A program made the position numbers and the translations under genes. The notes under the pieces were generated by a model that saw only the letters and a list, made by a program, of their open reading frames with translations, was not told where the DNA came from and did no database searches. From Collinsella aerofaciens (lineage in GTDB: Bacteria; Actinomycetota; Coriobacteriia; Coriobacteriales; Coriobacteriaceae), in contig NZ_CP084004.1 of the NCBI RefSeq assembly GCF_020181355.1, positions 1,550,001-1,614,000 of the forward strand: DNA of 64,000 bases. The letters are read 5' to 3'. Shown here piece by piece: positions 5,148 through 12,927 of the stretch (the first letter of the stretch is position 1; each line of letters begins with the position of its first letter).

Positions 5148-6404
5148 ATGGCATTGCAGTTTACAGAGCGCGAGTTCATCCCCGTGCTGCTCGGTGGCGA
5201 CATCAACGCCTATTCGGTGGCGCGCGCCTTCTACGAAGAGTATCAGGTCAAGAGTCTGGTCTTTGGCAAGTATCAGACGGGTCCTGCGTATCGAAGCCAG
5301 ATTATCGACTACACGCCCAATGTCGACATCGATACCATGCCCGTGATGCTCGAGACCGTCAACGGCATTGCCCAGGCGCATGCCGATAAGACGATCGTCC
5401 TGATGGGCTGCGGCGATAACTATGTTGCCCTGGTGGCCCAGGCAAAGGATGCCGATGAGCTGGCGGATAACATCGTTGCGCCCTATGCACCCTACAGCAT
5501 GCTCGAGCAGTGCCAGAAGAAGGAGATCTTCTACGAGCTGTGCGAGAAGCATGGCGTGCCGTATCCGCACACCTTTACCTTTACTGCGCAGATGCTCAAT
5601 GCGCAAGGCGAGGCGCCGGCCGAAGTGCTCGACCAGATCGACTTCCCGTTCCCGATGATCCTGAAGCCGTCCGACGGCATCATGTGGTGGCAGCATGAGT
5701 TCGAGGGCCAGAAGAAGGCTTATGAGATTGCCGATCGCGCCGAGCTGGAGCAGGTTATCCGTGACTCCTATGCCAGCGGCTACACCGACGACCTGATCTT
5801 GCAGGACCGCGTGCCCGGCAACGACGAGTACATGCGCGTGCTCACCAGCTATTCCGACCGCAACGGTAAGGTCCGCATGATGTGCCTGGGCCATGTGCTG
5901 CTCGAGGAGCATCAGCCCCACGGTGTCGGCAACCATGCCTGTATCATTACCGAGCCCAACGACGAGCTCATGGGCGGCGTGCGCAAGTTGCTCGAGGACC
6001 TTCACTTTGTGGGCTATTCCAACTTTGACGTTAAGTACGACGAGCGCGACGGCTCGTTTAAGTTCTTCGATTTCAACACGCGCCAGGGCCGCAGCAACTA
6101 CTACGTTACCAACAGCGGCTTTAACGTTGCCAAGTATGTGGTGGACGAGTATGTGTTCAACCGTCCGTTTGAGCCGGAGTTTGTGACGGCTCAGGACGAG
6201 GCCCTGTGGATGGTCGTCCCCATGGGCGTCGTCGACAAGTACGTCAAGGATCCCGAGCTGCGCGCTAAGGTGCATCGCCTGGACAAGGAAGGCAAGGGCG
6301 CCGACCCTTCGTTTATGAAGGGCGACTTTGTCTTTAACCGCTGGCTGCGCATGTGGCACACCAAGCTGCGCCACTTTAAGCTGTTCAAGACGTATTACAA
6401 GTAG
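5148..6404 (+). CDS. ATP-grasp ligase, candidate D-aspartate/D-glutamate ligase
   Basis: 418 residues. The ATP-grasp fold shows in PFPMILKPSDGIMWW (ATP-binding lysine), LILQDRVPGNDEYMRV and the metal-binding end SFKFFDFNTRQGRSNYY. Length and layout resemble carboxylate-amine ligases such as the D-aspartate ligase that adds the cross-bridge residue to peptidoglycan precursors in Enterococcus faecium. An Asp/Glu racemase gene follows on the same strand, as in known D-Asp cross-bridge systems. The substrate is an inference from context; other ATP-grasp ligations remain possible. AGGAA precedes the ATG. Confidence 0.7.
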   Translation: MALQFTEREFIPVLLGGDINAYSVARAFYEEYQVKSLVFGKYQTGPAYRSQIIDYTPNVDIDTMPVMLETVNGIAQAHADKTIVLMGCGDNYVALVAQAKDADELADNIVAPYAPYSMLEQCQKKEIFYELCEKHGVPYPHTFTFTAQMLNAQGEAPAEVLDQIDFPFPMILKPSDGIMWWQHEFEGQKKAYEIADRAELEQVIRDSYASGYTDDLILQDRVPGNDEYMRVLTSYSDRNGKVRMMCLGHVLLEEHQPHGVGNHACIITEPNDELMGGVRKLLEDLHFVGYSNFDVKYDERDGSFKFFDFNTRQGRSNYYVTNSGFNVAKYVVDEYVFNRPFEPEFVTAQDEALWMVVPMGVVDKYVKDPELRAKVHRLDKEGKGADPSFMKGDFVFNRWLRMWHTKLRHFKLFKTYYK

Positions 6405-6488
6405 ATGAGCGCGGCGCCCGTCCGGTTTGCATCGGGCGGGCGCGGGTATGATACGCGCAATTGCGCAAGCGTCACCAAGGAGGCGGCG

Positions 6489-7235
6489 ATGGAAAAGCTG
6501 GGAGTTATCGGCGGCATGGGCGCCGAGGCCACGTCGTATTACTACGACCAGGTGGTGCGTCATACGGCTGCTGCCTGCGATCAGGAACATATCGACATGG
6601 TGGTGCTCTCCAAGTCGACCATGCCCGACCGCACGTTGGCCATTAAGACCGGCGAGCATGCCAAGCTGCTGGCGACCATGAAAGAGTGCGCCCAGGCACT
6701 CGAGTCGCTGGGCTGTGCGCACATTGCCATTCCCTGCAACACGTCGCACTACTTCTACGACCAGATCCAGTCGTTTACGAAGGTGCCGATTATCCACATG
6801 CCGCGTGAGTCGGTGCGCTATGCTCTGGCCGGTGCGGTGATGGGGGAGTGCGAGTTCGACCCCAACCTGAGTATGCCGGCCGAGCCGGTGCACAAGATTG
6901 GCATCATGGGCACCGACGGAACCGTGGGCGCGGGTGTCTACGGCCGCGAATGTAAGGCTGCGGGTGTTGAGGTTGTCTATCCCAGCGAGAAACGTCAGAA
7001 CGATGTGATGTCGCTTATCTACGATGATGTGAAGGCCGGACGTGAGCCCGATATGGATAAGTTCGACCGCGTGATGTGGGAGTTCGCCCGTAGCGGCTGC
7101 GACCGCGTCATTCTGGCCTGCACCGAGCTCTCGGTGTTGCAAAAGTACCGAGAGATGCCCGAGATCACCCTCGACGCCATGGATGTCCTGGTGCGCGAAT
7201 CCATCATCCGTAGCGGCGCTCCCTACCGCCTCTAG
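6489..7235 (+). CDS. Aspartate/glutamate racemase family protein
   Basis: 248 residues. The start MEKLGVIGGMG is preceded by AAGGAGG. Two catalytic cysteines sit in family contexts: AIPCNTSHYF (about residue 82) and ILACTELSV (about residue 205). This two-cysteine, cofactor-independent mechanism interconverts L- and D-Asp or Glu. It follows the ATP-grasp ligase by 84 nt, which suggests supply of a D-dicarboxylic amino acid for the peptidoglycan cross-bridge. Asp versus Glu specificity cannot be read by eye. Confidence 0.85.
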   Translation: MEKLGVIGGMGAEATSYYYDQVVRHTAAACDQEHIDMVVLSKSTMPDRTLAIKTGEHAKLLATMKECAQALESLGCAHIAIPCNTSHYFYDQIQSFTKVPIIHMPRESVRYALAGAVMGECEFDPNLSMPAEPVHKIGIMGTDGTVGAGVYGRECKAAGVEVVYPSEKRQNDVMSLIYDDVKAGREPDMDKFDRVMWEFARSGCDRVILACTELSVLQKYREMPEITLDAMDVLVRESIIRSGAPYRL

Positions 7236-7359: not shown

Positions 7360-8106
7360 CTAGAACAGGAAGCCGATGGCGATGAGGGCGATGCTGACGA
7401 TGAGCACGGCGATGTCTAGGCCCTTGATGGGGTAGCGCTTGTACGAGCTGGCGCGCGTACGCAGATAGAAGCCGCGCTGTTCTGCCGCCAAGGCTGTGGC
7501 ATCGGTCTTGCCCACGCTCGAGATGAGCAGTGGCACACACAGTGGCAGCATGAGCTTAAGCTTCTTGATGGGGTTCTTGGTGTCGTACTCGACGCCGCGT
7601 GCGGTCTGCGCCTCCATGATGGCGTTCATCTCCTGACCAAACACCGGCACAAAGCGCAGCGCCGTGGTAAAGGTGAAGGCATAGCGATACGGCACGTGCA
7701 GCACCTCGACGCAGGCGTTGGCAAGGTCGTTGAGCTTGGTCACCATGAGCATGAGGATGAGTGGTAACGCCACACCCAGCAGGCGCAGACAGGCCTTCGA
7801 TCCTGTGATGAGACCCGTATCGGTGATAAAGCCCCACACCACGTTGCCATCGCGCATAAAGGCCAGCTGGAGCACCAGCATGATAAGCGCGAGCGGAATC
7901 AGCAACTTGAGCAGCGAGAACAGACGGTCGACGACGCCGGCATAGGCACCCAGCGCAAGGGTGAGTGCCAAAAAGCCCAGCAGCGCCACGTAGGTGTCGG
8001 ACAAGAAGATGCCGACGATGATGGCGGCGGCGAGGCCCAGTTTGACGACGGGATTCAGGCGATGCAGCAGCGTATCGCCCGGCATGTAGTCGATGACGTT
8101 AACCAC
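7360..8106 (-). CDS. ecfT: ECF transporter transmembrane component EcfT
   Basis: About 248 residues. Several hydrophobic helices flank the cytoplasmic coupling region; TARGVEY and AAEQRGFYLR match the two Ala-Arg-Gly type coupling motifs of the CbiQ/EcfT family that contact the ATPases. It couples ATP hydrolysis to toppling of the substrate-binding S component. GTG at 8106 is preferred because AAGGAG lies 10 nt upstream and the start overlaps the ATPase stop by 8 nt; an earlier in-frame ATG at 8139 would overlap by 41 nt. It is last in the trpP-ecfAA-ecfT operon. Confidence 0.88.
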   Translation of the reverse strand: MVNVIDYMPGDTLLHRLNPVVKLGLAAAIIVGIFLSDTYVALLGFLALTLALGAYAGVVDRLFSLLKLLIPLALIMLVLQLAFMRDGNVVWGFITDTGLITGSKACLRLLGVALPLILMLMVTKLNDLANACVEVLHVPYRYAFTFTTALRFVPVFGQEMNAIMEAQTARGVEYDTKNPIKKLKLMLPLCVPLLISSVGKTDATALAAEQRGFYLRTRASSYKRYPIKGLDIAVLIVSIALIAIGFLF

Positions 8107-9850
8107 GGTGGACCATCTCCTTGGCAATTCGAACGACATCGGTGACCTCGCTCACCTGCGCAAAAGCGGGCGAGACGGAAGATGCCAGACGGCGCGAGAG
8201 TTCAATAACCTGGGGAGGCTCCACGTAGGCACGCCGCATGAGATCGATGTTCGAGAATAGCTCGTGCGTGCGGCCGCGGTCGAGGATGCGACCGTCGGCC
8301 ATTACCACAATGCGCTCGGCAAAGTCGGAGACGACTTCCATATCGTGGCAGACCATGATAACGGCGCAACCGCGCTCGGCCATGGTACGCACCGTTTCCA
8401 TGACGGTCATGCACTCGCGGTAATCAAGGCCGCTCGTGGGCTCGTCGAGCACGACGATCTTGGGCTCAACCACTACGACGGAGGCAAGCGCCACCATTTG
8501 TCGCTGACCGCGCGAGAGCGAGAAGGGCGCCTCGTCGGCCGGCAAGCCAAAGCGGTCGATGACGAGCTGGGCGCGACGCAGCGCCTCGGCACGGTCGATG
8601 CCGGCAAGCTCCAGGCCAAAGGCGACCTCGTCGAGCACGGTGTCCTTGCAGATCTGGCGGTCGGGGTTTTGGAAGAGGGTCGCGACCTCGCGAGCGATGC
8701 GGCTCGTGGGAACCGATGCCGTGTCCAAGCCCGTAACGCGTACGCTGCCCGATGCGGGCTTGAGCAAACCCGTGAGCAGTTTGGTGAGCGTGGTTTTGCC
8801 GGCTCCGTTTTGGCCGACAATGCCCACGAGCTCGCCGGGGTAGAGCGTCAGGCTAAGGTCGTGTACGGCGGCGCCGCCATTGGGATAGGCAAACTCAACA
8901 TGGTCGAAGGTGAGTACGGGTTCGGCGTCCTTGGCATGAGGGCGCAACGACGGTGCATGCGGGGAACCGGTGGGCGCCTGGGCTTCGATAGCCGCGCGTG
9001 CGGGGTCGACGATGCCCGAAATCAGGCGCTCAGCCTCATCGACATCCAAGCAGGGGGTACCGCTTACCAGGCCATCGGCCTCGAGGCTATTGAAGATACG
9101 CGTGACGCGAGGGCAGTCGACGCCGATGGCACGGAGCTCGTCGGTATGCGCGAAGACCTCGTGTGGCTCGCCCTGCAGCGCAATTTCGCCATGGTTGAGC
9201 ACGAGCACGCGGTTGCAGTACTCCGAGAGCAGAGCGACCTTTTGCTCAACGACGACGATGGTGATTCCAAGTACGCGGTTTGCCTCACGCAGCGTCTCGA
9301 AGACCAATGTGGAGCTGGCGGGGTCGAGTGCCGCGGTGGGCTCGTCGAGAACCAAGACGCGCGGACGCATGGCGAGGATGGCGGCGATGGCTACCTTTTG
9401 CTTCTGTCCGCCCGAGAGGGTTGCGATCTCGCGGTCGCGCAGGTCGCTGATGCCGACGGTCTCGAGCGTTTCGCTCACGCGCTGCTCGATCAGGTCGTGG
9501 GGAACGCCAAAGTTCTCGAGGCCAAAGAGCATCTCGTCCTCGACGATCGAGGCGACCATCTGCGTGTCGATATCCTGCAGCACACTGCCGACGATCTGTG
9601 ACACGTCGGTCAGCGAGACTTCGCAGGTGTCATGGCCGTCAACCATGACGGACCCAAAGAACGTGCCGGTGTAGTGGTGGGGCACGGCACCTGACAGGCA
9701 GGCGGCAAGCGTGGACTTGCCGGCGCCCGAGGGCCCGATGATGCCGATGAAATCTCCCTTGTTCACGCTGAGCGAGATGTGGCTGAGCGCCTGCTCGGTC
9801 TGCGTGCCATAGGAGAACGAGACATCGTCGACGTTGATGATCGTTTCCAT
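8099..9850 (-). CDS. ecfA: ECF transporter ATPase, two ABC domains fused in one chain
   Basis: 583 residues carrying two complete ABC ATPase halves. The first has GPSGAGKST, LSGGQKQ and VLDEPTAALD; the second (from about residue 310) has GQNGAGKTT, LSRGQRQ and VLDEPTSGLD. In most ECF modules these are two proteins, EcfA1 and EcfA2; here one gene supplies both. The stop overlaps the ecfT start. The S-component gene lies upstream, separated by 213 nt holding two large palindromes, so ATPase expression may be tuned separately from the S component. Confidence 0.92.
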   Translation of the reverse strand: METIINVDDVSFSYGTQTEQALSHISLSVNKGDFIGIIGPSGAGKSTLAACLSGAVPHHYTGTFFGSVMVDGHDTCEVSLTDVSQIVGSVLQDIDTQMVASIVEDEMLFGLENFGVPHDLIEQRVSETLETVGISDLRDREIATLSGGQKQKVAIAAILAMRPRVLVLDEPTAALDPASSTLVFETLREANRVLGITIVVVEQKVALLSEYCNRVLVLNHGEIALQGEPHEVFAHTDELRAIGVDCPRVTRIFNSLEADGLVSGTPCLDVDEAERLISGIVDPARAAIEAQAPTGSPHAPSLRPHAKDAEPVLTFDHVEFAYPNGGAAVHDLSLTLYPGELVGIVGQNGAGKTTLTKLLTGLLKPASGSVRVTGLDTASVPTSRIAREVATLFQNPDRQICKDTVLDEVAFGLELAGIDRAEALRRAQLVIDRFGLPADEAPFSLSRGQRQMVALASVVVVEPKIVVLDEPTSGLDYRECMTVMETVRTMAERGCAVIMVCHDMEVVSDFAERIVVMADGRILDRGRTHELFSNIDLMRRAYVEPPQVIELSRRLASSVSPAFAQVSEVTDVVRIAKEMVHRG

Positions 9851-10063: not shown

Positions 10064-10636
10064 TTAGTTGAGCTTCAGGGCCTTCTGGATGGGCAGATAG
10101 AGGGCGCCGACCAGAATGGCGTTAAAGACGGCGGTCATGGCGACGACGGGCAGCATGGCGGCGGCGAGCTCGCCGACCACGCCGAGCATGGCCATCTTGA
10201 TGATCATGAAGATGACGCCGGAGACAAAGGTGGTCAGGAAGGTTGCGACAATGGCGATGGCGGGCTTGACCTGACCGTTCTTGCCAGCGGCGTTGACGAT
10301 GCCGGCCATGAGCATGGCGGCGATGCCCTCGGCGGCAAAATCGACGAACGGCGAAGTGGTGGTGATCTGGATCACGGCAGCCGAGATGAGGCCAATAACG
10401 AGCGCCTGGCCGATGTTGGGGCGAACGACCAGGATGGTGAGGCAGAAGGCCGAGATGATGAACTCGGGGCTGATCATGCCGCCCGAGATGCCCGAGATGG
10501 CCTTGCCGACGGTGAAGTTGAGGATGAAGCCGGCAGCGAGCAGGATGGCGAGCAGGACGAGGGCGCGGACATCGAGTTTGCCGCGGTCGGCGGTCTGGAC
10601 GGTGCGGGGCTGGGCGGCGGTGGTGTTCTGAGACAT
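10064..10636 (-). CDS. trpP: ECF transporter S component, TrpP-like tryptophan transporter
   Basis: 190 residues. After a polar N terminus of about 30 residues come five to six hydrophobic helices. The segment ALVIGLISAAVIQITTTSPF resembles the VIGIVTGIISALTT region I recall from Bacillus TrpP, a tryptophan transporter of the S-component superfamily. ATG at 10636 is chosen for AAAGGA 8 nt upstream. Upstream lie a Trp-rich leader peptide and a terminator, independently pointing to tryptophan as substrate. ATPase and EcfT genes follow on the same strand, giving a dedicated transporter. Confidence 0.8.
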   Translation of the reverse strand: MSQNTTAAQPRTVQTADRGKLDVRALVLLAILLAAGFILNFTVGKAISGISGGMISPEFIISAFCLTILVVRPNIGQALVIGLISAAVIQITTTSPFVDFAAEGIAAMLMAGIVNAAGKNGQVKPAIAIVATFLTTFVSGVIFMIIKMAMLGVVGELAAAMLPVVAMTAVFNAILVGALYLPIQKALKLN

Positions 10637-10681
10637 GGTGAAAATCCTTTCGGAATGGGGGTGCAAGAGAAAAGCGGAGGC

Positions 10682-10811
10682 GCGTGATGCGAATGCGATC
10701 GGGCTCGAGATAGAAAAAGGCCCCCGGTCGAAACCGGAGGCCTTCCAATCACCTAGAGCGCAAAAACAGGCGTGAGGGACTCACTGTCGACCGATCGTAT
10801 TCGCATCACGC
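10682..10811. repeat. 21-nt inverted repeat flanking the attenuator terminator
   Basis: Bases 10682-10702 are the reverse complement of 10791-10811 with one mismatch in 21. The 10791-10811 copy lies within the leader-peptide codons immediately after the Trp codons; the other copy lies beyond the terminator, before the S-component gene. In read-through RNA the two could pair around the terminator hairpin. Confidence 0.85.
10717..10744 (-). terminator. Attenuator terminator upstream of the TrpP-like gene
   Basis: On the minus strand a stem AAGGCCTCCGGT / ACCGGGGGCCTT with a TTCG loop is followed by TTTTT and lies 37 nt after the leader-peptide stop codon. It is a strong intrinsic terminator in front of the transporter operon, as expected for attenuation. 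Confidence 0.88.
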
Positions 10812-10849
10812 CACCACCAGTTGTTGAGAGACTTCATCGTGTTCTTCAT
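10781..10849 (-). CDS. Tryptophan leader peptide (attenuator)
   Basis: A 22-codon open frame (start 10849, stop TGA 10781-10783) has AAAGGAG 8 nt before the ATG. It contains three consecutive Trp codons (10811-10819) in NNWWWRDANTIG. A GGCGTGA segment at the third Trp codon can pair with TCACGCC just after the stop (10769-10775), the usual region 1 and 2 pause hairpin, and a terminator follows. Ribosome stalling at Trp codons when charged tRNA-Trp is scarce should let transcription continue into the transporter genes. The antiterminator pairing is not obvious by eye. Confidence 0.85.
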   Translation of the reverse strand: MKNTMKSLNNWWWRDANTIGRQ

Positions 10850-10907
10850 GTTGGTGGCTCCTTTCGTGATGCCGTGGCGCGGTCGCACCTAGTTGCTGTT
10901 GCGCTGC

Positions 10908-10913
10908 ACTATA
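10908..10913 (-). promoter_or_regulatory. Candidate -10 element of the leader/ECF operon
   Basis: The minus strand reads TATAGT within GCTATAGTG, about 60 nt before the leader ATG. No convincing -35 is seen, so this is tentative. Confidence 0.3.
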
Positions 10914-10988
10914 GCACAGCGAAGTGTGTGCGGGGAAATCTTTTTTGAAAAGATTTCAGGCGGGTTTCCCGCCGGTCAAAAGAGCGGG

Positions 10989-11044: not shown

Positions 11045-12847
11045 TTAGGCCTTCTTGCGACGATAGATCACGTAGGCGCAGACACCGATGATGACGACGG
11101 CGCCAACGGCCATGGCGGCCATGTTGTTGCCCTCGGACTTCTCCTCGGTGACCTCTTCCTCTTCGGCCTCGGGCTCGGCCACGTCCTCATCGGAAAGGGC
11201 CTCGTCGGCGTAGGTGATGGACTCGACCAGGCAGTTGTTGTCAACATCGTAGTCACTCGGGACGAACTCCTCGGAGAAATCGCCCTCCTGGAGGTAGTCG
11301 CGCATCTCCTCGAGCATGGCCTTGCACTTAACATAGGTGTTCTTGGTTGCAGCCTTGCCGGCCTTGTTGGCCAGGGCGGTGCGGGCTTCGGTGCCTTCTT
11401 CGGCCTGCATGGCCTCGTCGACGGTCAGGTTCTGCTCGATGAGTTCCTTCTGCAGGGCGTCGAGATAGGCGCGGACGCCGGTGGCGCAGTGGTCGCGGTT
11501 CTCATAGGCGAGCGTGTTGATGTCCATGAGGACGTAGTTGATGGAGTTCTTGGGCTCCTCGTTGTTCACGACGTCTTCCTCTTCGCAGTGATCGAAGGGG
11601 ACATCCTGATCGCTGAAGTAGGGGCTGACCTCGGTGAGCAGTGCGGAGTAGAGGGGGATGGCGACGGAGAACTCAGCGTTGGAGAGCATCTCCCACTGGA
11701 TGGTCGCGATCTCGGGATCCATGCCGTGACGGATCTGGAAGGTGTGGATCTCGGTGTTGCGGTTGGAGCCGATGGCATAGGCGCCGTCGGTGTTGGCGTT
11801 GAGGCCGGCGACATTCTCGCCGCGAGCGGCGAAGGAACGAATCATCTCAAAGGTGTTCCAGTCGGACTTGCCGGGCTGAAAGAACAGCGGCTGCATCTCG
11901 TGGACCAGGGCGCCGGTCGTGGCGCGAGCCTCTTCGCGCTCGTCCTTGACGATCTCGTAGTCAGTGCCTTCAGCCAGCGGGGCCATGAAGTAATCGCGAC
12001 CCTGGATATAGCGCGACCACTGGTGCATACCGGCCTCGTCGATCTTCTCGCCGTAGGTCTTGGCGACGTCGAACTTGCCGTCGGTGTACTCGGCAAAGCC
12101 CTTCTCCTTAGGCATGGACTCGATGCCCTCGGAATGGAGACAGTTCTCGGTGTCATCGAGGTCGACGTTATAGGTGAGGTTGCCGATGTTGGGGTTGAGC
12201 GAGGCGATGTCATCGGCGAGCTTCATAGCAATCCACTGATGGCCGGAAAGCGCGGCGAACAACCAGGTCTCGGTGCTGTCGGCGATGATGATCTGATCGT
12301 TGGAGCAGACGCCCTGCTCGTCGATCAGGCTGCCGATGAGCTCGACGCCCTCGCGGGCCGTGGCGCTCTCGCCCAGGATGACGCTGGCATAGCTGTATTC
12401 GCCAATGCCGGTCTCCTCGGTGATGGGGTCGGCCTCTTCGGCCTTCTCGTTATAGGAGGTGCTCAACGTGGCAGAGCAGGAGACGCCCTTCTCGTTGATG
12501 CCGGCCTCGGAATATGCGTCGTAGCGATCTTCCCACTGCGAGGGGTTGTCGCGAACGAAGGTGTAGCGGTAGGTTGCGCCCTTGGACTTGTACTCAAAAC
12601 CGGACTCGACCGAGGTGTACTCGTTGCCGTCCTTGTGTGCGGGCTCAATGCCAAAATGCTTGACATAGCGCGGACCGAAGTCCTCGGAACGGCCGTAGTA
12701 CGTGTTGCCGTCTGCCGTGAGCTTGCTGCCCATGTAGATCTGGGTGCAGGCGAGTGCCGAAGTCGGCATGGCCATGATGGCCGCTGCTCCAAACGCAAGG
12801 CCGCAGCCGAGCTTTTTGAGCGTGTTGACAGGATGAGTAAACCTCAT
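11045..12847 (-). CDS. Cell-surface C69 family dipeptidase
   Basis: 600 residues. A signal peptide ends at SALA followed by Cys-Thr (ALACTQIYMG); in family C69 (peptidase U34) this newly exposed Cys is the N-terminal nucleophile, so secretion may also activate the enzyme. Other family strings are YYGRSEDFG and GVSCSATLS. The C terminus has an acidic stretch (EPEAEEEEVTEE), one hydrophobic helix and YRRKKA, an anchor that keeps the enzyme on the outer face. It should release amino acids from dipeptides for uptake. ATG 12847 has GGGAGG before it. Confidence 0.88.
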   Translation of the reverse strand: MRFTHPVNTLKKLGCGLAFGAAAIMAMPTSALACTQIYMGSKLTADGNTYYGRSEDFGPRYVKHFGIEPAHKDGNEYTSVESGFEYKSKGATYRYTFVRDNPSQWEDRYDAYSEAGINEKGVSCSATLSTSYNEKAEEADPITEETGIGEYSYASVILGESATAREGVELIGSLIDEQGVCSNDQIIIADSTETWLFAALSGHQWIAMKLADDIASLNPNIGNLTYNVDLDDTENCLHSEGIESMPKEKGFAEYTDGKFDVAKTYGEKIDEAGMHQWSRYIQGRDYFMAPLAEGTDYEIVKDEREEARATTGALVHEMQPLFFQPGKSDWNTFEMIRSFAARGENVAGLNANTDGAYAIGSNRNTEIHTFQIRHGMDPEIATIQWEMLSNAEFSVAIPLYSALLTEVSPYFSDQDVPFDHCEEEDVVNNEEPKNSINYVLMDINTLAYENRDHCATGVRAYLDALQKELIEQNLTVDEAMQAEEGTEARTALANKAGKAATKNTYVKCKAMLEEMRDYLQEGDFSEEFVPSDYDVDNNCLVESITYADEALSDEDVAEPEAEEEEVTEEKSEGNNMAAMAVGAVVIIGVCAYVIYRRKKA

Positions 12848-12927
12848 AATCCCTCCCAACCGTTGAAACCCTGCGGAACCGTGCAGGATTTCAGCTAATA
12901 AATACATCTATTAGCCTATAGGAAGTC

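Follow-up and report, generated by a model that had tools for sequence, protein, structure and literature searches.

The window, as the term is used here, is the whole stretch of Collinsella aerofaciens DNA that was analysed (64,000 nt; NZ_CP084004.1, positions 1,550,001 to 1,614,000). On its minus strand it carries a complete ECF transporter gene set (S component, ECF ATPases and EcfT), preceded by a short leader open reading frame with three adjacent Trp codons (WWW) and an intrinsic terminator. The genes and features of the locus are as follows.

7360..8139, minus: EcfT component (CbiQ family), 259 aa; PF02361, E 3.4e-26; two Trp residues
8099..9850, minus: fused pair of ECF ATPases, 583 aa; ABC_tran in two stretches, TIGR04520 above cut-off; no Trp residue
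10064..10636, minus: TrpP-like ECF S component, 190 aa; PF17099 (TrpP), E 1.5e-4, 22 bits against a cut-off of 27.2; no Trp residue
10676..10703, minus: anti-leader element CCCGATCGCATTCGCATCACGCGCCTCC behind the terminator; complementary to the Trp codons and to the leader codons that follow
10714..10744, minus: intrinsic terminator AAGGCCTCCGG-TTTCGA-CCGGGGGCCTT and T tract; paired in 93.8% of 450 cells
10769..10775, minus: TCACGCC, partner of GGCGTGA (10812-10806) in a 1:2 hairpin; 91.5% of 281 cells paired
10787..10793, minus: CGGTCGA inside the leader, proposed 5' arm of an antiterminator; CGGUC/GACCG conserved
10849-10781, minus: leader ORF MKNTMKSLNNWWWRDANTIGRQ, 22 codons, ATG at 10849, TGA at 10783-10781
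10819-10811, minus: the three Trp codons (WWW); WWW in 59 of 61 family loci
10852..10858, minus: GCCACCA between Shine-Dalgarno sequence and leader start, complementary to the UGGUGGC of the Trp codons
10864-10858, minus: Shine-Dalgarno sequence AAAGGAG of the leader; all 61 family rows tallied have GGAG at this place
10908..10916, minus: extended -10 promoter element TGCTATAGT, with a probable transcription start at about 10902

The S gene begins with an ATG at 10636, behind AAAGGA (10650-10645), and its product is 99% identical to C. aerofaciens entries. The preliminary description of this locus had recognised a TrpP-like S component with fused ATPases and EcfT. The make-up of the operon bears this out, and adjoining ECF ATPase and EcfT genes are, like a full-length profile alignment, common ground with TrpP (PF17099); the match itself is weak, at 22 against 27.2 bits. 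Among relatives, 11 of 21 match TrpP at E <= 0.001, and the partial S protein of one locus (L150) scores 30.5 bits, above the cut-off. No relatives of the S component were found among solved structures in a PDB sequence search (E <= 0.01). Within 3 kb of the S gene, an ATPase gene is present in 79 of the 80 named loci and an EcfT gene in 75. A second S-like match, approximately 45% identical and close behind the first, occurs in 12 of 65 family genomes (for example G002, G012, G038 and G063), where the tandem S components share the leader. As to the neighbourhood, a C69-family dipeptidase gene on the same strand (11045-12907, minus) ends approximately 130 nt ahead of the promoter, and a gene weakly matching carbamoyl-phosphate synthase precedes one of the Asp/Glu racemase family (5148-7235, plus), convergent with the transporter operon.

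The S component and the ATPases contain no Trp in 773 aa and EcfT contains two in 259, compared with 109 Trp in the 16,483 aa of 40 long open reading frames of the window. The S component is Trp-free in 61 of 62 family loci and 44 of 45 other loci, counts that are not independent because the sequences are related. The three PF12822 matches in the genome, one of them above cut-off, have four to five Trp each, in frames read by eye. Neither a chorismate-binding enzyme (PF00425; 14 of 14 controls positive) nor TrpA (PF00290) was detected in the host genome, and TrpA is present in four of 64 family genomes (G023, G024, G042 and G059), leaving 60 without it.

The leader, its terminator and their distribution

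A 22-codon frame with a good Shine-Dalgarno sequence and three Trp codons had been noted previously, and is confirmed by direct reading of the minus strand. Searches of the genus and family with the S protein gave a match in 63 of 65 family genomes and a set of 62 S-gene loci, one of which (L029) lies against a contig end and has no upstream DNA. The Trp leader is present at the same place in all 61 loci with readable upstream DNA, and is therefore not a product of chance. Within the family, 59 leaders have WWW, one has WW (L044) and one has WAW (L058, MDTLSDTIAAWAWRDACPLGRD); the last Trp codon and the stop are nine codons apart in 61 of 61, and the peptide end GR(R/Q) is kept. The sequence TGTGCTATAGT or near variants of it are found upstream of the leader at similar spacing in most alignment rows inspected, an impression rather than a tally, and a consensus scan with a -35 box found no promoter. 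GCATCACG, which stands before the Shine-Dalgarno sequence in C. aerofaciens, was considered as a conserved upstream partner of the leader and rejected, as it is not kept in other rows. The spacer between the Shine-Dalgarno sequence and the start codon is mostly GCCACCA or GCCACCG in the family and could pair with UGGUGGC, a possible self-closing of the leader; many Atopobiaceae have GCGCC, which would fit the UGGCGC of Atopobiaceae leaders.

The strong terminator that had been described between leader and S gene is read directly, and a pattern scan reports it as well. Its stem is formed by 10744-10734 and 10727-10717, with the T tract at 10718-10714, and its 3' arm, including GACCG at 10729-10725, is invariant in the 31 rows of one alignment (A1) and the 44 rows of another (A2). 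Loss of the Trp codons or terminator in close relatives had been named as a check on the preliminary description; both are retained there. The locus has a translatable leader with adjacent codons for the same amino acid and a terminator between this leader and the first gene, as expected of an attenuator, and the fixed distance from regulatory codons to stop is found throughout the family, but not in the SNF-type leaders described below. In the C. aerofaciens group, a GTGAG-TCC-CTCAC hairpin that lies at the leader stop and precedes GCCTGTTTTT (10784-10761, minus) is also terminator-like.

Two further pairings were considered. The “pause” pairing GGCGTGA/TCACGCC of the preliminary description is present in the sequence, but its covariation does not exceed that of shuffles, and 1:2 pairing was rejected as the main structure on this ground. 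GGCGTGA has a longer, covarying partner behind the terminator. The CGGUC of the leader, 20 nt from the third Trp codon, can pair with the GACCG of the terminator in 205 of 205 cells of A2 and in 97.8% of 412 cells of an order-wide alignment (A3), with neither covariation nor two-sided changes in A2 or A3. In L150 and L155, read by eye since they are misaligned in A3, both sides look changed, with CGGGUUA facing UAAUCCG. When the RNA is folded at equilibrium, the full terminator prevails whatever the ribosome state, and the antiterminator reaches 0.06 with the ribosome on the third Trp codon. In folding of truncated nascent RNA, for the 28 of 31 sequences with an exact CGGTC (L028, L055 and L057 being left out), the antiterminator reaches 0.49 with a stalled ribosome, 0.43 without one and 0.00 when the stop codon is occupied.

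The mechanism proposed is ribosome-mediated attenuation, with the leader segments covered being judged from ribosome footprints; the outcome of equilibrium folding and the absence of two-sided changes in CGGUC/GACCG weigh against it. When Trp-tRNA is ample, the ribosome would pass WWW, reach the stop nine codons on and cover CGGUC, so that the terminator would form. When Trp-tRNA is scarce, the ribosome would stall on WWW and cover GGCGUGAUG, leaving CGGUC free; the free CGGUC would then pair with the GACCG of the nascent terminator, and transcription would read on.

A covariance model built from the 31 leader-terminator sequences found matches (E <= 0.01) in 145 of 396 genomes of the class, representing 35 of 153 genera, with one match in the genome of the window. 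When the model was run on the phylum it matched 24 of 396 genomes: 20 belong to the order, and the other four matches, from elsewhere in the phylum, are weak (E 1.9e-5 to 3.2e-4). Sixty matches, mostly from outside the family, were read: 52 are leaders and eight are not (L152-L154, L156-L159 and L162); one leader offset by a contig end (L119) was read as L212. Outside the family the leaders are found mainly in Atopobiaceae (Olsenella and others), and one (L141) belongs to Slackia isoflavoniconvertens. The TrpP-like S gene lies within 400 nt of 43 of the 52 leaders. Seven precede SNF-family Na+-symporter genes (L142-L144 and L146-L149) and two precede a TrpB-like PLP enzyme gene (L150 and L155); in L150 a TrpP-like S gene follows 1.65 kb further on, and the sequence of L155 ends too early to tell.

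The occurrence of the same leader before SNF and TrpB-like genes strengthens the relevance of tryptophan to the transporter operon. It also argues against import of some other substrate, with the Trp codons responding to general Trp-dependent starvation. That explanation would accommodate the sub-threshold TrpP match of the window protein and the lack of relatives among solved structures at E <= 0.01, but it fits poorly with the TrpP match above cut-off in L150, with an S component devoid of Trp and with a host in which Trp synthesis (PF00425, PF00290) is undetected, and is considered quite unlikely.

In four SNF-type leaders (L143 and L147-L149) the reading frame ends two or three codons past WWW, ahead of CGGUC. 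Nevertheless CGGUC/GACCG is retained in them and CGGTCGATCG is kept as untranslated RNA, so that it is the RNA, and not the peptide end, that is conserved. This bears on the possibility that the leader is an arrest peptide of the TnaC type, sensing free tryptophan instead of slow Trp decoding. The tnaC operon of E. coli, which includes a tryptophan permease, depends on a single key Trp and on Rho-dependent termination. The GR(R/Q) end conserved in the family would suit an arrest peptide, but three adjacent Trp codons and the early stops of the SNF-type leaders would not, making this reading very improbable.

A covarying element behind the terminator

The preliminary description overlooked a segment behind the terminator (10703-10676) that is complementary to the Trp codons. 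In the window, arms at 10682-10702 and 10791-10811 form a 21-nt inverted repeat, 95% complementary, which is the only pair of at least 10 nt in 10620-10910. The minimum-free-energy fold of 10905-10625 uses this repeat (z -4.31; 0 of 200 shuffles as good). Across the family, an anti-leader element, taken as the best 11-nt complement of a locus's own leader core with at least nine pairs, is found in 56 of 61 loci and is missing in L044, L051, L054, L056 and L058. The element score threshold is reached by 49 of 54 distinct loci, compared with 6.2% of shuffled sequences.

Covariation was assessed on 44 rows (41 distinct) aligned with MAFFT. The 15-pair helix, referred to here as the clamp, is 89.1% paired against 82.4% in shuffles (0 of 500), paired counts of the element being raised because it was located by complementarity. 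Two-sided changes affect 11 of the 15 pairs and 38 cells, where shuffles give 5.0 and 10.1 (0 of 500 in both cases); sliding the helix never yields more than six pairs or 13 cells. RNAalifold independently proposes the same helix and extends it over the Trp codons, with GG-UGGUG pairing with a conserved flank. Altered leaders have matching elements, such as GCATGACGCG with CGCGTCATGC (L059), GCGTGGTTCTC with GAGGGCCACGC (L043) and, in a Slackia-type locus (L145), GCGCAATGCTG with CGGCATTGCGC, and all 12 of the distinct altered leaders pair better with their own element than with the consensus element. On a tree of the S gene, independent contrasts summed over positions 4-12, too few at any one position for a test, gave 11.0 in the same direction, 0.2 in the opposite direction and 6.8 unchanged. 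Partner swaps gave -32.4 kcal/mol for the own partner, -27.8 for swapped and -23.3 for shuffled ones, a difference that is modest because most elements are alike; the own partner ranked first in six of 31 sequences, and 17 of 31 beat all 100 shuffles.

Among the named loci, the element is present in 47 of the 79 with a readable leader. Beyond the family it lies between terminator and S gene in two of the 52 leaders only (L141 and L145); scores of at least 19 in L144, L146 and L150 arise at sites further downstream and do not enter the count, and the element is absent from the Atopobiaceae loci read. The clamp is missing, therefore, from five of 61 family loci and 50 of 52 other leaders, and is not needed for attenuation. 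In Slackia isoflavoniconvertens (L141 and L189) the S gene is 77% identical to that of the window and the element core is identical, which looks like transfer between families; the S gene of the other Slackia-type genome (L145) is only approximately 36% identical. Action of the element in trans was also considered and rejected: the exact element occurs once in the genome, patterns with up to three mismatches occur in 70 places against 40 for a reversed control pattern, and the six next-best places inspected (among the best 10) all lie inside open frames of at least 100 codons.

Proposed function of the element and relation to known systems

Being located behind the terminator, the anti-leader element would be present in read-through transcripts only, where it would pair with the Trp codons and the codons that follow unless a ribosome sits there. 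Such pairing would take the Trp codons out of use and end further folding of the attenuator. In calculations on full-length RNA, the cost of opening the Trp codons rises from 16.7 to 24.1 kcal/mol with the element (26 sequences) and changes from 16.3 to 14.9 in the five sequences without it, whereas the cost of opening the leader ribosome site falls from 12.3 to 8.1 kcal/mol with the element (26) and from 11.8 to 11.4 without it (five). The clamp therefore appears to pull the Trp codons off the Shine-Dalgarno spacer.

Overall, the locus is probably (we would estimate 0.72) a ribosome-mediated attenuator that responds to charged tRNA-Trp and sets the expression of an ECF-type tryptophan importer in a host without detectable Trp biosynthesis, with an element confined to read-through RNA that is proposed to clamp the leader of the committed mRNA. 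Sequence comparison establishes the leader, the fixed distance between Trp codons and stop, the terminator, the conservation of CGGUC/GACCG and the covariation of the clamp; ribosome stalling, antitermination and tryptophan as the substrate are deduced. Attenuation of uptake is a known kind of control; the clamp behind the terminator is the new part, and its function is inferred. Action on committed mRNA is favoured among several candidate roles, namely sparing of Trp-tRNA, 5' protection, recruitment of RNase III and the stopping of leaking polymerases.

The clamp might instead act as a second ribosome-gated transcription checkpoint, at which RNA polymerases leaking past the terminator in Trp-rich cells would pause or stop at the helix, alone or with Rho, and which a ribosome stalled on WWW would block. 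The logic fits, because the helix would form only when the Trp codons are free. Rho sites have been reported as C-rich and G-poor, and the post-terminator leader in the family is of this composition (C/G 2.1 against 0.86 in 31 window 5' flanks). However, C/G is equally high (2.14) in the five family loci without the element, and is therefore not tied to the clamp, and no conserved T tract follows the element, which leaves a checkpoint on the unlikely side. The post-terminator C/G of 39 Atopobiaceae-type loci is 1.35.

A comparably low likelihood is given to the helix determining how long the transporter mRNA lasts, either as a cutting site for RNase III or by stabilising the 5' end. A long duplex would exist in the full-length transcript only, and an idle ribosome could occupy the 5' end once the clamp has freed the leader ribosome site, as the fall from 12.3 to 8.1 kcal/mol suggests; this shift is a calculated one, however, and two loci (L023 and L034) do not show it. 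Control of S-gene translation, by hiding or freeing the S ribosome site, has a precedent in leader-controlled translation switches of other genes such as ermC. Here, opening the S ribosome site takes the same energy whether the leader is free (6.2 kcal/mol) or occupied (6.4 kcal/mol; 31 sequences), the distance from element to start codon varies widely, and this role was rejected as very unlikely.

Action on the committed mRNA leads to a more general and tentative proposal, which is put forward as a possibility rather than an expectation: attenuators could have a second stage past the terminator decision, in which the ribosome and an anti-leader segment found in read-through RNA only would be rivals for the regulatory codons. 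The committed mRNA would thereby continue to be adjusted to the level of charged tRNA, through translation of its leader, its decay or further transcription.

The trp attenuator of E. coli works through a stalled ribosome, a 1:2 pairing and a terminator, and controls a biosynthesis operon. The same logic is proposed here for an uptake operon, and to our knowledge the E. coli attenuator has no post-terminator anti-leader segment. In Firmicutes, TrpP is under the control of TRAP or of T-box leaders, which respond to uncharged tRNA, and is not known to be under that of a leader peptide. Neither a T-box nor any other Rfam family reached the gathering score in the window or in five relatives, and an Rfam assignment of the leader was rejected, with three sub-threshold matches only (best E 0.054). 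In the published passages available, the tnaC leader of E. coli is likewise a leader peptide with Trp, but differs in being induced by excess free tryptophan.

In the available passages of Seliverstov et al. (2005, PMC1262725), the trp attenuators described for Corynebacterium and Streptomyces stand before trp genes and trpS. These share with the present leaders two or three adjacent UGG codons, a poly-U terminator and a proposed antiterminator. As described in those passages, they precede trp biosynthesis operons and trpS, whereas the Collinsella-type leaders mostly precede an uptake operon (PMC1262725). The conserved triple gGCC-rGCy-GGCC reported there is not seen here, where the CGGUC arm lies inside the leader ORF, and the extra element behind the terminator distinguishes the present leaders from the Corynebacterium and Streptomyces attenuators as presented in the same passages. 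The passages available from a 2022 paper on histidine regulation (PMC9413887) contain no tryptophan leader. In the open-access literature, subscription journals being mostly beyond the scope of the search, no paper was found that describes a leader of this kind in Coriobacteriia or one preceding an ECF transporter, and as far as these searches show the anti-leader element is undescribed.

For Collinsella and related gut bacteria, which mostly lack Trp synthesis genes, the locus provides a rule for the regulation of tryptophan uptake that can be tested. Leader-peptide attenuation would have been moved in these organisms from the synthesis of an amino acid to its import and, if the clamp does act on committed mRNA, it would add an extra stage to a textbook mechanism.
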